A stretch of 64,000 nt of DNA from Thermodesulfovibrio sp. (GTDB lineage Bacteria > Nitrospirota > Thermodesulfovibrionia > Thermodesulfovibrionales > UBA6898), in assembly GCA_013824615.1 (NCBI GenBank), contig PNOC01000005.1, positions 1 through 64,000 on the forward strand. The letters run 5' to 3'. Of this stretch, positions 57,058 through 64,000 are shown piece by piece. The position numbers and the translations under genes are program-made. The notes beneath the pieces are model-generated. The model made no database searches, was not told the origin of the DNA, and saw nothing but the letters and a program-made list of their open reading frames with translations. Every line of letters begins with the position of its first letter. Position 1 is the first letter of the stretch.

Positions 57058-58158
57058 TTAATCCTGATTTGTGCTGAAAATCTCGTCAAACTGCGGGGAA
57101 ATCGCCACAAAAACAGCCAGGACCTCAGGATCAAAATGCTCAGGGGACGTCCTGCCATCTCCTTCGGTAATTATGCGGTAGGTCTCCTGATGGCCGAGCG
57201 ACGTTTTATAGGACCGGACACTCCGCAGTGCGTCATATTCATCAGCCAGCTTCACAATACGGGCCTCAATCGGTATGTCTCTGCCCTTCAATGCCCGGGG
57301 ATAGCCCTCCCCGTTCCACTTCTCATGGTGATGCAGCGCAATGGAGCTGGCCATATGGAGTGTGGGATGGGAGGACCCGGAGAGAATTTTATGGCCCATA
57401 ATCGTATGCTCCTTCATTACTTCACGTTCAGCCTCTGTAAGATCAGCCTTCTTCAGAAGAACATTATCAGGAATCCCGATTTTACCGATATCGTGCAGGG
57501 AACTGGCAATGGCGACCTCCTCAATAAAATCTTTGTACATATTCATCGCCTCGGCAATGCACCTCGAATAAAATCCGATTCTTGAAATATGGGCAGCGGT
57601 ATAGCTGTCCCGGAACTCTGCCACGGCAGAGAGCCGCTGGACAATCTCGACGCTCAGTCTGTTTGCCATCACGGCAGCGTCCTCCAGCTCGCGCGTCTTG
57701 CGCATCACCGTGTTTTCGAGCGTGAGCATGTAATTTTTTTCAGACTGGACCATACTGTAGCGCTCCAGACCTCTGCTGACCAGGGTCATGAGATACTCCT
57801 GGTTAAAGGGTTTGGTGAGAAAACTGAAAGCGCCCTTATTGACCGCCTCAATCGCGATCTCGAGATCCCCGTAGCCGGTCATGAGGATAACCGGGATTTC
57901 AGAGTTGAACTGCTGAATTTGATCGAGAAGTTCGATCCCTGAAACCTCCGGCATTTTTATATCCGATAATACCAGGGCGACCGGATTTTCCGTCAGCTTT
58001 GCAATTGCCTCGACGGCTCCATCACAGGCAACGACCGGTAGTCCGCGCTTGCGGAACAACGACGAAAGGTAGCTACGAATAGAAGCGTCATCATCAACAA
58101 CAAGGATAAGCCCTTCAGACAGACTCATGGGAAAAGACCGTTCGACAGCTGCTTCCAT
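57058..58158 (-). CDS. Response regulator with HD-GYP domain
   Basis: 366 residues: receiver domain (about 17-135, Asp66 in LSDIKMPE, Lys in LTKPFN), a coiled-coil linker (about 145-175), and an HD-GYP domain (about 180-340) with HDIGK, DHTxxG-like EHTIMGHKIL and HHHEKWNGEGYP, then LADEYDALRS. Such domains hydrolyse cyclic di-GMP and need two metals; the key residues are present. Start ATG 58158 has AGGA 5 bases upstream, with a TATAAT box 9 bases before the ATG. It follows the giant cytochrome gene's reverse order: HD-GYP is upstream, the cytochrome ends 132 bases before it on the map. Both are on the minus strand. Confidence 0.92.
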   Translation of the reverse strand: MEAAVERSFPMSLSEGLILVVDDDASIRSYLSSLFRKRGLPVVACDGAVEAIAKLTENPVALVLSDIKMPEVSGIELLDQIQQFNSEIPVILMTGYGDLEIAIEAVNKGAFSFLTKPFNQEYLMTLVSRGLERYSMVQSEKNYMLTLENTVMRKTRELEDAAVMANRLSVEIVQRLSAVAEFRDSYTAAHISRIGFYSRCIAEAMNMYKDFIEEVAIASSLHDIGKIGIPDNVLLKKADLTEAEREVMKEHTIMGHKILSGSSHPTLHMASSIALHHHEKWNGEGYPRALKGRDIPIEARIVKLADEYDALRSVRSYKTSLGHQETYRIITEGDGRTSPEHFDPEVLAVFVAISPQFDEIFSTNQD

Positions 58159-58290: not shown

Positions 58291-61200
58291 TCATGGACAC
58301 TTTCCGGTGGCCTGACAGCGGGCCAAGACTTCGGCATCGCTCAGGGCAGTACCGTAAATTCTGACCTCGTCCACTGATCCTGCAAATGCGCCGTAGGATG
58401 AGTCATCCAGGCACACGGAAGTTGATATGTATACATTTGGTCTCGCTGAAACAAGTCCGGTCCTTACCAGGTTGCCGTTGAGATATATACGCGGCTGTTT
58501 AGCGGTATACGTAACGACAATATGGTTCCAGCCGGACATCGGCGACAGGGTCGCATCGTATACCGCAAGTGCCGGCATATAGCTGCCACTGTGTTCATAA
58601 ACCGAAATGCCGTTCGTCCCGACAGAAACCCCCATGCCGGCATTGGGAGCGCCATAATAATTTGCTCCAAACAGATACCTTTGACCGGCAATCCCCAATG
58701 AGCCTGCCGTGCTTTCAGCTTCGATATCGTGGGCTGCAGTTGGCTGCACCATGGCCTCAAGGGTGAAGTTGTTTGCCGGTCTGCCCTCTGCATATGCCCA
58801 TGAGAGTTTGTCGTCACCGCTGCAGAAAAGTCCGCTGCCGGAATATCCGGCCGACCAGTACCCGGTGCCGGTAAGCCCTGCAGTGTTGCTGCCGCTGGAA
58901 TCAGCCGCAACCGTACCGGCCCCCTCGTCAAGATGCCATTGGCTGAGGAGTTTCATCGTCGCAAAAGAAGTTTCGTCCGAATATACAGACCAGACTCCCT
59001 TGCTATCCTGATATCTCACCTTCCAGTAGCAGAGCGTATTGACTGGCAGGTTTGAGCCTGTCACATGGTTTGCAGCCCCGGCAACCGCACCGCTGTCATA
59101 CAGGACGTTGGCGTCAAAAGCAGCCCCCGTCCCCCTGCTTATGCGCCACTGGCTTGCAAGGTGGGTATCTCCCGCATCGCCGTCAGCAAAGGCCGTGGCC
59201 TCCAATGTTGGTTTCCGGACAATATCCACCGTACCGGAGACAGGACTGACATTCACCGGTTTCCCCGGGGTGGCGTTGCTAAGCGTTGTATAGACTGTTT
59301 CGCTCGAATAGGCAGACCAGTCGCCGTTGCTGTCCTGATAGCGGACCTTCCAATAGTAGGTGGTGCCAAATGCCGCGGTCGCTGTTACACCGTGAATGGT
59401 ACTTCCCGCCGCAACGCCGCTGTCATACACAACAGCAGCATCAAAACCAGCGCCTGACGCCGTGCTTATCCTCCACTGGCTCGCAAGGTGCGTATCTCCG
59501 GCATCCGTATCAGCAAAAACAGAGGCGGTCAGGGTCGGACTGAGGGAAACCCCGGAGGCCCCGGACGCGGGAGAGGAATTCACCGGCGTAGCCGGCAGGT
59601 GATTCCCGAAACCGCTGACCGACACGGTGACCGGGTTGGCCTCGGGATCGTTGTTCGGTATCGCAAAACTCTCGGCAAAGGCACCAGCTGCTGCCGGAGA
59701 AAAGCTGACGTCAAAGGTGCAGAAAGCGCCGGACGCTATGGTATTGGTCGAGCAGGTGTCGTTTGCCACGAAGAAGGGATCTGCCAGGGGATTCATAGCC
59801 CCGATAGTTCCGATGACAAGATCTGCATTCACCGGACCGGTGTTCGTGACAGTTATCGTCTGCTGCGCACTGCTGCCGGGAACCACATGCCCGAAAGAAA
59901 TACTCTGAGAACTTACCTGGATATTCGGGGTATGCATCGTGATAAGAAATTTACCGAAACCTCGTGCTCCCTTATCGGTATTCACCGTTGCCACGACAGC
60001 ATTGTCCGATGTCCGGATAGCAGTCACCCACCCCGGAAGAGAGAGTGAATCCGAGGTCCCTGCATTATTGACAACGTAGATGTATCTGCCGTCAGAGGTT
60101 GCGGCAACACCAGTCGGGTATGATGCGATCGCCCCGGCTATGTCGATTGTCGCGGTGACCGTCCCTCCTGTTGTTTCGATAACCGAAACCGTCGGTCCCA
60201 GGGTATTGGCCACATAGGCAAAACTGCCGTCAGGAGTGAAGGCAAGGCCGCTGGGACTCGGGCCCACCGGGATTGTCCTGCTCACAGTATTGGTATCAGT
60301 CCCGATGACGGAAACAGTGTTTGAGCTGTAATTGGTGACAAATACCTGCTGTCCGTCGGGAGAGACGGCAACTCCGTACGGTGCGGACCCCACGGTCACC
60401 GGATCAAAAACCGTGTTGTCCGTGGTCCGGATTATGGTGACCGTATTACTGCTCGTGTTTGCCACGTAAACATAGAGACTGTCGGGGGTCACATCAAGTC
60501 CGCGCGGATTGGATCCGACCCCGATCGTTGCCGTGACCGCATGGGTAGTCCGGTCAATGACGCTGACGGTATTGTCGACCGCGTTTGCAACATAAAGCCG
60601 CTTGCCATCTGGCGACGCCGCAATCCCGGTCGGCGCCCTGCCGACGTTTATCTTGCCGGCTGCCGCAAACGTCCAGGTATTTTTCGCCGGGATATGCCAC
60701 ACCTGGTTATATCCCGAGGCCGTGATATAGATCCGGGAATCCGTCGCCGCCACCCCGAAAGGCATGGAGTTGCTGTTGAGTACGCCATCCCAAACTGCTG
60801 CATTTCCAAAATTCGTGTTGGTCAGGCTGCCTGTCGTGGCATTGACGCCGATGTAAATTGGCGAAACAGTATTGCTGGAGGTACAGGTTGTAAAGCGACA
60901 GATCCCTGAGTGGGTGTAGCTGTTTGGTATATAGGCCAGGTACGTCTCAAATCCATGGCCTGTCAGGGTCAGCGTTGCGGGGTTTTCATCCGGGTCATTG
61001 CTGGCGATGCTGAGGGCTAGCTCATAGGCAATACCGGCAGCAGGGGCGAATTTGAGGGTTATAGAGCATATACCTGCCGGATTCAGAGTGCCACAGGTGT
61101 TGGCCTGAACCGTAAACGGTCCGGCAGGCAGGGAGAGAGCCCCGATATTCAGAATGGCAGAGCCGTCATTTCGGATATACAGAATTTTCGTCAAAGAACC

Positions 61201-64000
61201 GGCGTGGTAGTCCAGGAAGCCAAAATCCATTGACATCACCGGCGGAGAACTCGCGGAATTCTGGTCGGTGAGTGTTATGTCCGGCGCAGGGGCCGTACCC
61301 GCACCGGTGACTGTTACGGCAAACGGACTCTTGTTCGGATCATTCGAGGAGATCGAGACCGTGCCTGTGTATCCGGTTTGAGCAGTCGGGGTGAATTGGA
61401 CATATAGCGTACAGGTACTTGCGGTTGTCATGCCGGTTGCCCCGAAATTATCGCAGGTGCTTGAGGCAAGGTCGATCGAAAAAGGAGCAGCAACCGTAAT
61501 ACTGCCGAAGACCAGGTTCCCCACACCGTTATTCCTGACGGTGATGATCCTGCTTCCGGTGGTATTTATCACCTGGTTCCCGAACGGCAGCAGGCTGTCA
61601 TCAGACGGAACAACCGGGTCCGTTACAACAATATCAGGATACGTGCCGCTGCCTTTCAGGGTTACCCTCACAACTTTTTCATTGGGGTCGTTGCTCGGGA
61701 TGTCGAAGGTCTCATAAACGACACCTGCTGCTATCGGTGAAAATCTGACTCCTATCGTACAGGTAGCGGACGGTGCTAGGGTCTGCCCCGCGCAGGTATT
61801 GGACGTGATCGAAAAGGGTGCTGTTGCCGGGTCCTGAACAGCGATACTGCCGATGACCAGGTTGGCGGCACCGGCATTCCTGACGGTGATGGTCTGGATA
61901 GCGGAGAACTGATTGACCGTAACATTCCCGAAATTCACACCGTGATCCGCAGTGGGTGAAACCGTATCAGTCAGGACAATATCCGGCTGGTCCAGGTTGG
62001 GATCGTCGGTCTGGATAAATTTACCATAATTGTACGGGGCGCTGGCAACGACTATCGAGCCGGCCTGGATATTAAAATCAGTACGGACAACCATGACCTG
62101 ATCCGCCGCAGGGACCGTGATAAAGAGGAGCCTGCCGTCCGGCGTTATGGAAATGCCTCCGAGGGTCCCGCTTGAGGGCGCAACCCCAATAACGGTCGAT
62201 ACCGTCTCCGTAACCGTTTCAATCACACTGATCGAGTTGTCAGACTCATTGACCACGTACAGCTTCGCTCCATCAGGAGATGCAACAATGTTTCTTGGTC
62301 CGGGGCCGACATCGATCGTGCCGGTCACCGTAAAATCAGAGGTCCGGACGACCGAGACCCTGTTCTCGGTGTTATTGACAATATACGCCTTTGAACTGTC
62401 CGGGGAAAAGGCTATGCCATACGGCGATGCCATAGCCAGAGTCGCCGCTACGGACATATCCACGGTACGCAGTACCGAGACGTAATGCGCTCCTCCCGAT
62501 ATGTTGACAGGGATATAGAGATATGCCCCGTCGGGAGACACGGCGAGACCGGACATATGCAGGTAATAAACAGTATCCAAGGGCGTCTGGGAAACCACGT
62601 TATTGCTTGCAGTATCGATGACAGAAAGGTAATTGGTATAGACGCTGGAATCCGCATTGACGAGAGCGTATACATACGCCCCGTTTTGCGAAGCAGCCTC
62701 ATGCTGCGTGCTGGTTGCGGCGGTCATCGTGACATTCTGTGCGACCAGCCCCGGGTTATAGATGCGGAGGATATCGCTGCCTGAGTAGTTTGAGTATACT
62801 TTTGACCCGTCCGGCGTAACCGCAACATAGGTATGCCGGTAGCTGGTTGTGGTCGGCAGCGTCTGGACGATCTGCCTGTCAAAGGTGCGTATTTTTGTAA
62901 CAGCGCCTGTATAGTTATTTGCCGAAGTGCCCTGGCTCATGATATAGGCATAGACAGGACTAATCCCGGTACCACTGACCGTGATGATGGCCGGATTTTC
63001 ATCCGGGTCATCGCTTGGAATATCGAATTGGTCGCTGAAGGTCCCTTTTGCTGTCGGAGCAAAGCGCACATTAAAGGTGCAGGATGCTCCCGGACTGAGT
63101 ACCAGTCCGGTTGAACAGGTATTATTGATGATCGAAAACGGCGCTGCCAGAGGATCTGTTGAAGCGAGAGTGCCAAGGGTGAGATTGACCACGCCGTTAT
63201 TGGTAACGGTAACCGTCTGATCTGCGGACAAGGAGATCAGCTGTTCCCCAAACGGTATCGACAGATCTTCAAGGGGAACCGCTGAGTCTGCAATAAAAAT
63301 ATCAGGACCAATGGCCGTTGCAACGCCACTGAGACTAATGATCGCAGGGCTTGCAGGATCATTACTGGGGAGATCAAAACTGTCAGAAAACGCACCGGGG
63401 CCTCCAGGGGCAAACCTCACCACAACAGCACAGGACGCAGCCGGAGTGAGCGCCTGCCCGGAACAGGTATCACTGATAATCGAAAACGGTGCTGCCAAAG
63501 GGTTTCCGGAGGCCACAGCTCCCAGGACAAGATCAGCATGACCAGCGTTCTTCACCGTTATGGTCAAGTCTTTCTGTGCTGTTGCGACAAGGCTGCCGAA
63601 GTCCAGGCTCTTGTCCGTGGCACTGCCCACCGGATCGATGACCCTGGTCAGAGGGCCTGCTATGCCGAAACTGTACTTATGGCTATGGCAGTTCATGCAG
63701 GATTTTCCTGTATCACCCTGGTGATGGTTGTTCGGCTGCGAGGTATCCGGATGAGAGCTTCCTGATGCAGTATGACAGGAACCGCATACGCCTGAGCCCG
63801 GAGTTGCATCCGGGGCAAGGTCCCTCAGATCCGAATCTGTCGACTCAAAACCTGAAACAGTCACGGAGTTACCGGCCCCTCCGACCCGGCCGTTGATAAC
63901 CGGCCTGATCATCGCCAGTTTGTTGGTCCCATGGCTGTCGTGGCAATCCTTGCATTGGTACCCGGGGCTCACCCCGTAATTTCCCTTATCGCCATAGGCA
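58291..64000 (-). CDS. Giant multiheme cytochrome with choice-of-anchor D, YVTN propellers, Fn3-like and LamG modules (5' partial)
   Basis: The frame is open to the window edge, so the N-terminus is missing; over 1900 codons are visible. From the N-terminal side: heme c motifs CKDCH (63940-63954), CGSCH (63772-63786) and CMNCH (63685-63699); two choice-of-anchor D modules (to about 62960); a YVTN-type beta-propeller (to about 61990); three more anchor-D modules (to about 60930); a second propeller (to about 59930); a sixth anchor-D module (to about 59610); two Fn3-like repeats (ADTDAGDTHLASQWRIS pattern); and a C-terminal LamG-like domain ending GKCP. It should be secreted and extracellular. 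Extracellular electron transfer or binding to a surface is likely. More hemes may lie upstream. Confidence 0.85.
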   Translation of the reverse strand, partial: AYGDKGNYGVSPGYQCKDCHDSHGTNKLAMIRPVINGRVGGAGNSVTVSGFESTDSDLRDLAPDATPGSGVCGSCHTASGSSHPDTSQPNNHHQGDTGKSCMNCHSHKYSFGIAGPLTRVIDPVGSATDKSLDFGSLVATAQKDLTITVKNAGHADLVLGAVASGNPLAAPFSIISDTCSGQALTPAASCAVVVRFAPGGPGAFSDSFDLPSNDPASPAIISLSGVATAIGPDIFIADSAVPLEDLSIPFGEQLISLSADQTVTVTNNGVVNLTLGTLASTDPLAAPFSIINNTCSTGLVLSPGASCTFNVRFAPTAKGTFSDQFDIPSDDPDENPAIITVSGTGISPVYAYIMSQGTSANNYTGAVTKIRTFDRQIVQTLPTTTSYRHTYVAVTPDGSKVYSNYSGSDILRIYNPGLVAQNVTMTAATSTQHEAASQNGAYVYALVNADSSVYTNYLSVIDTASNNVVSQTPLDTVYYLHMSGLAVSPDGAYLYIPVNISGGAHYVSVLRTVDMSVAATLAMASPYGIAFSPDSSKAYIVNNTENRVSVVRTSDFTVTGTIDVGPGPRNIVASPDGAKLYVVNESDNSISVIETVTETVSTVIGVAPSSGTLGGISITPDGRLLFITVPAADQVMVVRTDFNIQAGSIVVASAPYNYGKFIQTDDPNLDQPDIVLTDTVSPTADHGVNFGNVTVNQFSAIQTITVRNAGAANLVIGSIAVQDPATAPFSITSNTCAGQTLAPSATCTIGVRFSPIAAGVVYETFDIPSNDPNEKVVRVTLKGSGTYPDIVVTDPVVPSDDSLLPFGNQVINTTGSRIITVRNNGVGNLVFGSITVAAPFSIDLASSTCDNFGATGMTTASTCTLYVQFTPTAQTGYTGTVSISSNDPNKSPFAVTVTGAGTAPAPDITLTDQNSASSPPVMSMDFGFLDYHAGSLTKILYIRNDGSAILNIGALSLPAGPFTVQANTCGTLNPAGICSITLKFAPAAGIAYELALSIASNDPDENPATLTLTGHGFETYLAYIPNSYTHSGICRFTTCTSSNTVSPIYIGVNATTGSLTNTNFGNAAVWDGVLNSNSMPFGVAATDSRIYITASGYNQVWHIPAKNTWTFAAAGKINVGRAPTGIAASPDGKRLYVANAVDNTVSVIDRTTHAVTATIGVGSNPRGLDVTPDSLYVYVANTSSNTVTIIRTTDNTVFDPVTVGSAPYGVAVSPDGQQVFVTNYSSNTVSVIGTDTNTVSRTIPVGPSPSGLAFTPDGSFAYVANTLGPTVSVIETTGGTVTATIDIAGAIASYPTGVAATSDGRYIYVVNNAGTSDSLSLPGWVTAIRTSDNAVVATVNTDKGARGFGKFLITMHTPNIQVSSQSISFGHVVPGSSAQQTITVTNTGPVNADLVIGTIGAMNPLADPFFVANDTCSTNTIASGAFCTFDVSFSPAAAGAFAESFAIPNNDPEANPVTVSVSGFGNHLPATPVNSSPASGASGVSLSPTLTASVFADTDAGDTHLASQWRISTASGAGFDAAVVYDSGVAAGSTIHGVTATAAFGTTYYWKVRYQDSNGDWSAYSSETVYTTLSNATPGKPVNVSPVSGTVDIVRKPTLEATAFADGDAGDTHLASQWRISRGTGAAFDANVLYDSGAVAGAANHVTGSNLPVNTLCYWKVRYQDSKGVWSVYSDETSFATMKLLSQWHLDEGAGTVAADSSGSNTAGLTGTGYWSAGYSGSGLFCSGDDKLSWAYAEGRPANNFTLEAMVQPTAAHDIEAESTAGSLGIAGQRYLFGANYYGAPNAGMGVSVGTNGISVYEHSGSYMPALAVYDATLSPMSGWNHIVVTYTAKQPRIYLNGNLVRTGLVSARPNVYISTSVCLDDSSYGAFAGSVDEVRIYGTALSDAEVLARCQATGKCP

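Follow-up and report, generated by a model that had tools for sequence, protein, structure and literature searches.

A giant multiheme cytochrome with an adhesin-type arm, and a Nitrospirota family whose heads are homogenised within genomes

Giant cytochromes that carry domains additional to their heme-binding parts are already known. The ANME cytochromes of types MHC-A and MHC-B contain S-layer or transmembrane parts, and a pectin-lyase (beta-helix) domain in MHC-C has been proposed to serve in the recognition of partner cells (Chadwick et al., 2022, PMC9012536). Gene clusters combining cytochromes with a PPIase and a beta-propeller protein have been described in D. ferrophilus and Ca. Desulfofervidus (DFE_0448-0451, DFE_0457-0465; PMC8322314, PMC9769857), and the cytochromes DFE_0450, DFE_0464 and DFE_0465 were detected among the extracellular proteins of D. 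ferrophilus (PMC8322314). OmcE (PDB 7tfs) is a small four-heme subunit of ∼230 aa, MtrC and OmcA are decaheme lipoproteins with two split-barrel domains, and the CxxxxCH/CxxCH repeat of Geobacter cytochromes is represented by the models TIGR01904 and PF09698.

The gene studied here (the target) encodes 2,678 aa with 20 heme sites and matches none of these descriptions fully. By description it resembles ANME MHC types B and C as a giant multiheme protein joined to a large heme-free region, but the ANME proteins are archaeal, their heme-free region is N-terminal, and neither a shared head nor LamG tips have been reported for them. In the target the hemes are N-terminal and a beta-helix match is absent, although six tails of the family to which it belongs are beta-helices, as in MHC-C. 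OmcE is likewise a c-type multiheme protein, and its homologs share an operon with heme-only relatives of the target, but the size and heme number of the target are not those of OmcE, and a profile of the target's N-terminal head against 7tfs gives a non-significant E of 0.025 covering only 42 positions. Heme number also separates the target from MtrC and OmcA, for which the MtrC II/IV heme-domain model is the only match; the ortholog has Ala at the position of Cys16 in the signal region. The repeat of the Geobacter cytochromes is present in the heme body above the curated NCBIfam cut-off (TIGR01904, 34.3 bits against 27, three stretches), although this model names a repeat and not a head or tail. 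A search of openly available literature returned no account of the head family, of swapped LamG and beta-helix arms or of homogenisation within genomes, although an earlier mention is possible.

The window is the whole stretch of DNA analysed, 64,000 nucleotides from one end of a contig of 95,579 bp. The target frame is open throughout its part in the window and extends beyond it to contig position 66,327; it begins with GTG, contains no internal stop, and encodes a hydrophobic, signal-peptide-like N-terminus. The features that lie in the window are collected in Table 1. The original prediction, made from the window, described at least three CxxCH motifs joined in one frame to six choice-of-anchor D modules, two YVTN propellers, two Fn3-like repeats and a LamG-like domain, with the heme part N-terminal and truncated, and the remainder forming a long arm. 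Each of these elements is borne out: the motifs at aa 792, 848 and 877 are in the target frame, the modules are recovered by Pfam and NCBIfam matches at aa ∼900–2678, and extension of the contig past position 64000, as had been proposed, adds 17 heme sites at aa 42–738 and brings the count to 18 CxxCH and 2 CxxxxCH motifs, all within aa 42–881. The outcomes named in advance as fatal to the prediction did not occur, as the frame is unbroken, further hemes and a signal peptide are found upstream, and every heme motif belongs to the same 2,678-aa frame, which rules out a heme part encoded as a separate gene. A tRNA-Leu (CAA) gene lies 256 bases upstream of the target on the same strand (L002:8585-8671, contig 66,584-66,670), and a gene for an HD-GYP-type response regulator ∼130 bases downstream, also on the same strand (57058-58158).

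Table 1. Features of the target gene within the window, listed from the heme body to the tip.
Feature	Residues (aa)	Positions	Strand	Basis
Window part of target gene	777-2678 + stop	58291..64000	(-)	Single open frame
C-terminal end of heme body, last 3 of 20 heme sites	CxxCH at 792, 848, 877	63658..64000	(-)	Motifs and profile matches
Choice-of-anchor D module 1	approx. 901-1006	63310..63627	(-)	NF012200; Cys pair 955/966
Choice-of-anchor D module 2	1012-1110	62998..63294	(-)	Best NF012200 stretch; Cys pair 1071/1083
Beta-propeller 1, YVTN/lactonase type	approx. 1112-1455	61963..62994	(-)	Repeat positions
Choice-of-anchor D module 3	approx. 1456-1563	61639..61962	(-)	Profile stretch
Choice-of-anchor D module 4	approx. 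1564-1680	61288..61638	(-)	Profile stretch
Choice-of-anchor D module 5	approx. 1681-1793	60949..61287	(-)	Profile stretch
Beta-propeller 2, YVTN repeats	approx. 1796-2130	59938..60942	(-)	Repeat positions
Choice-of-anchor D module 6	approx. 2134-2243	59599..59928	(-)	Profile stretch; Cys pair 2192/2203
Two Fn3/Ig-like repeats	approx. 2244-2470	58918..59598	(-)	PF25788, two stretches, and alignment
LamG/ConA-like lectin domain, terminal tip	approx. 2506-2667	58327..58812	(-)	PF13385, E = 2e-13

An ortholog in a congeneric Nitrospirota MAG, a frame of 2,755 aa, is 74% identical across nearly its full length and retains the order of the modules and all 20 heme sites. The tails of the two proteins differ with dN of ∼0.14–0.15 and dS of ∼0.9, and base composition along the target gene is uniform. 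The ortholog, with the same order at this identity, and the dN and dS values of the tail exclude chance and chimeric assembly; the intact frame and the uniform base composition likewise rule out a chimera or a frameshift. The whole arrangement is retained in two species under purifying selection. In the sister species the gene adjoins ruvCAB-like genes, as read from sequence only, and the locus is thus not syntenic.

In the arm, the matches to choice-of-anchor D (E = 4e-71) and YVTN/lactonase repeats (E = 4e-48) are stronger than those to LamG and to Ig/Fn3-like domains (E = 2e-8). The anchor D model NF012200 scores 236.6 bits in six stretches against a cut-off of 45, and the LamG/ConA-like lectin model PF13385 scores 51.3 bits against a gathering score of 27.6, whereas the two propellers were located by the positions of their repeats and by the stretches that separate the anchor D modules. 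An AlphaFold2 model of the tip built from three sequences reaches a pLDDT of 44, a weak result attributable to the small number of sequences. The LamG domain and the propellers can have a purely structural role. Anchor D modules also occur in two very large proteins of the same genome (G000:C26:20956-25099, a 3,359-aa frame, and G000:C38:18509-21805, a 2,005-aa frame), which are a possible source of the arm modules.

The heme part divides into a head (aa ∼30–300), in which a beta domain separates the third and fourth of six heme sites, and a heme body (aa ∼300–890) with the other 14 sites, the seventh site, at aa 311, marking the border. The heme part exceeds the cut-offs of the Cytochrome_C7, MtrC/MtrF II-IV and CxxxxCH/CxxCH models, and the motifs are predicted to carry heme. 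AlphaFold2 applied to this part (the stretch of the ortholog, L072, with 21 relatives) gives a mean pLDDT of 36 and is confident only for the beta domain (residues 106–208 of the L072 stretch); the heme parts are poorly modelled because the prediction was made without cofactor. Foldseek comparison of the model with the PDB yields no match at E ≤ 0.001, and a profile search for solved structures homologous to the head yields nothing beyond short heme-motif matches.

Many giant cytochromes, the largest reaching 2,950 aa, share the first ∼300 aa of the target and are defined in this analysis as the family of Nitrospirota giant head cytochromes. The motifs PH, THS and CHxPHxQxQ are invariant or nearly so among 23 aligned members, and the target has all the features by which the family is recognised (PH...CxxCH, THS, CHxPHxQxQ and a heme cluster at aa 251–291). 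The head is present in 23 of 81 sampled relatives, and the family comprises Nitrospirota together with a few Desulfobacterota and other MAGs. Within the genome of the target (profile match of the head, E = 6e-116) there are exactly three heads: the target, a 1,258-aa protein on contig C9, and an 891-aa protein cut by the end of contig C37. A family member in a Desulfobulbaceae MAG (L118:9974-18817) has 2,948 aa, 65 CxxCH motifs and a 741-aa tail with Fn3.

The head and the rest of the protein have different nearest relatives. The target head is 80% identical to an own-genome paralog and 45% to the ortholog, and beyond aa ∼310 these identities reverse to about 30% and 77%, respectively. Target and ortholog are 38–52% identical over aa 1–300 and, almost without gaps, ∼77% identical from aa ∼330 to the end, while in windows of 50 aa the head is 56–90% identical to that on C9 and 48–82% to that on C37, falling mostly to 14–40% after it; the break in identity is thus near aa 300–330. 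The signal-peptide region is less alike (50–65%) than the remaining head. The head tree groups the three own-genome heads, and an AU test rejects forcing the heads of the two body-orthologs together (p-AU 1.2e-5). The same pattern is seen in proteins of three genomes (L095, L100 and L110), whose bodies and tails are 71–79% identical and whose heads are 47–54% identical, each head being nearest to another head of its own genome; forcing these heads together is also rejected (p-AU 2e-52), both AU tests having been set up after the trees and identities were seen. Among genomes with at least two heads, the nearest head is in the same genome in 23 of 40 cases (5,000 label shuffles: mean 0.8, maximum 8), and the nearest body in 3 of 38. 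Discordant head/body pairs number 21:2 (sign test, p = 7e-5), or 17:1 (p = 1.4e-4) if tandem copies are left out; for the shuffle and sign tests the groups were chosen from the same data and rows were taken as independent. The heads of L073/L078 and L077/L082 are exceptions that follow relatives in other genomes. In these alignments and trees, homogenisation within a genome affects the heads and spares the bodies and tails, and the pattern recurs in other genomes.

Tandem head cytochromes at L098:9950-20977 and L113:9935-20783 have heads that are 83% and 72% alike, respectively, with unlike bodies and tails, and each is an instance of the mosaic pattern inside one gene pair. Recent gene conversion of the target head is unsupported, since at the codon level the synonymous sites of the heads have diverged between own-genome paralogs; head exchange is thus old or repeated, and not recent in the target. 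An association of solitary position with head homogenisation, judged by eye, is too weak to claim.

A family member was classified as tailed if its last heme is followed by more than 300 aa; mapped on the head tree, this state has undergone at least 12 changes. LamG occurs in 14 of 23 tails and a right-handed beta-helix in 6 of 23, either at the tip or right behind the heme body. Across the family the tails fall into several kinds that are unrelated to one another: anchor D, YVTN, Fn3 and LamG in the target and its ortholog, SBBP, TSP3, LamG and Fn3 in a sister species, G004, beta-helix, polymorphic-membrane repeats and Calx-beta in G024, and Big_2 with beta-helix in G019. The Fn3-LamG tip of the target is 65% identical to that of G004, with an otherwise different arm between heme body and tip, which indicates that head, arm and tip are exchanged separately. 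In one tail (L109:9029-10189) the last module is a golvesin C-terminal domain (E = 1e-56), which is unusual in combination with a cytochrome.

The genes of tailed members are often solitary. None of 18 has an OmcE-like gene within 5 kb upstream, as opposed to 12 of 24 heme-only members (Fisher p = 3e-4, rows being treated as unrelated though several share a genome or kinship). A heme-only head cytochrome is often the last gene of an operon that in relatives of the target is conserved as a small NHL propeller protein, an OmcE-like protein, a seven-heme cytochrome, a second OmcE-like protein, a propeller-type protein of ∼900 aa and the head cytochrome; half of the heme-only members are outside such operons. 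In sequence, the OmcE-like neighbour is similar to 7tfs, the structure of the OmcE filament (E = 4e-14), and to 9yuq (E = 3e-19). An OmcE-like gene is found in 22 of 23 head-bearing and 27 of 58 headless genomes (Fisher p = 3e-5, kinship ignored), the one head-bearing genome without such a match being G016.

The genome of the target has an OmcE-like operon of this kind on contig C37, ending in the head cytochrome. This operon (G000:C37, L019:1-16702) encodes a possible porin, an NHL protein, two OmcE-like four-heme proteins, a seven-heme protein, an FG-GAP/BACON protein and the truncated head cytochrome, the small protein matching NHL and the ∼900-aa protein FG-GAP and BACON; further upstream are a third OmcE-like gene, a second NHL protein and a nine-heme protein. 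The proteins that precede the operon set at L019, L074 and L080 may be porins, as read from the ends of their sequences, and two of these putative porins match the Pfam model TrAA12-like. A SurA-like PPIase is encoded upstream of the set at L103. Since D. ferrophilus and Ca. Desulfofervidus also have clusters of cytochrome, propeller and PPIase genes, the operon is, by description, a known kind of locus; unlike the head family, the D. ferrophilus clusters have no described adhesin tails. In three nanowire operons the gene directly after the head cytochrome encodes another large cytochrome, whose long N-terminal part is poor in hemes (L080:15991-18867, L103:15118-19368, L074:15364-17985); the one at L103 contains 13 CxxCH motifs and an Fn3 domain. 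The end of the operon, a location common in the family though not universal, is occupied by the C37 paralog and not by the target, which is solitary, its neighbours including no OmcE-like, propeller or porin gene. The link of the target to nanowires therefore rests on its paralogs and on co-occurrence.

The explanation that accounts best for these findings, to which we assign a probability of about one half, is that the target is a secreted modular electron-transfer protein, probably at the cell surface, composed of a docking or secretion head, a heme wire and an exchangeable adhesive arm. A common genome-specific partner would recognise the head as a module for docking and/or secretion, and the homogenisation of the first ∼300 aa within genomes argues for such a docking or export head. 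Candidate partners are the end of a nanowire, a propeller, a porin or an export machine, and the partner would most likely be the OmcE-like nanowire/propeller apparatus encoded on C37. The heme body would serve as a short conducting wire, and the anchor D modules and propellers (aa ∼900–2678) as a spacer holding a LamG tip that might bind polysaccharide, a sheath, a partner surface or a mineral-associated matrix. Electron delivery to minerals, partner cells or a sheath, as suggested in the original prediction, is plausible. The original interpretation of a giant multiheme protein on an arm stands, although it missed the family, the OmcE-like operons, the differing tails and the homogenisation of heads. 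Counting against this explanation, deletion of comparable clusters in D. ferrophilus gave no Fe(III)-oxide phenotype (PMC9769857). A more specific version is put forward only tentatively, as a doubtful but possible refinement: a uniform, genome-specific conductive head, kept so by recombination or selection, would fit the cell's own nanowire apparatus, and exchangeable lectin or beta-helix arms would choose the surface or partner.

The strongest rival, which we consider somewhat less likely still, is that the N-terminal 300 aa are recognised by an export or heme-assembly route specific to the genome, and that the protein afterwards acts unattached in the matrix, as an adhesin that bears a cytochrome. 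The N-terminal position of the homogenised part, the frequently solitary position of tailed genes and the fact that LamG, Fn3 and anchor D are typical of secreted matrix proteins all favour this. However, a homogenised segment of ∼300 aa that includes a folded beta domain as well as six heme sites is far beyond a typical signal, the signal-peptide region is itself the less similar part of the head, and OmcE-type operons that encode partner proteins end in a gene with this head.

A purely periplasmic role, in which the protein would be an electron reservoir with its tail anchored to peptidoglycan or envelope proteins, fits less well and is considered improbable. The target has a Sec-type signal only, with no recognised outer-membrane export signal, and the presence of multiheme genes is by itself no proof of extracellular function (PMC9769857). 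Against this, the lectin- or adhesin-type tail modules vary between close relatives, as expected if they face outward, and the D. ferrophilus cytochromes found among extracellular proteins (PMC8322314) are, by description, comparable.

Catalytic propellers, which would make the target a self-wired extracellular enzyme of lactonase, NosZ-like or quinohemoprotein-like type, are very improbable and were rejected on model scores and histidine conservation: the YVTN repeats do resemble the models for hydrazine synthase beta, lactonase-type NosZ and 6-phosphogluconolactonase, but all score far below cut-off (120 of 560, 86 of 700 and 51 of 370 bits), the propeller histidines are few, with two of them lost in the ortholog, and the propeller section is replaced by SBBP/TSP3 in a sister species and by beta-helix in others. 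It is equally improbable that the protein lacks a special function and arose by ordinary accretion of promiscuous repeats to a multiheme gene since, although the anchor D, YVTN and LamG modules also occur in other large proteins of the genome, the full arrangement is kept in two species under purifying selection and the same head has repeatedly been fused to LamG or beta-helix tails.

The head family, in which lectin-type arm tips are combined with a head that is linked genetically to OmcE-like operons, is a concrete candidate for a missing adaptor that would anchor or cap cytochrome nanowires and aim them at a particular mineral or partner. The mosaic of head and body predicts that a common, genome-specific partner is bound by the heads. 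Phage tail spikes and fibres have a constant docking N-terminus and an exchangeable, receptor-binding C-terminus that is often a beta-helix, and the target family resembles them by analogy of design, not by homology. If uniform heads do plug into the nanowire apparatus while their arms grip a surface or partner, then a cell whose head proteins differ in their arms could link a single electrical connector to more than one surface, in the way that phages exchange receptor-binding tips while the base of the fibre stays constant. The swappable arms also suggest a natural set of parts with which conductive proteins might be directed to surfaces of choice.
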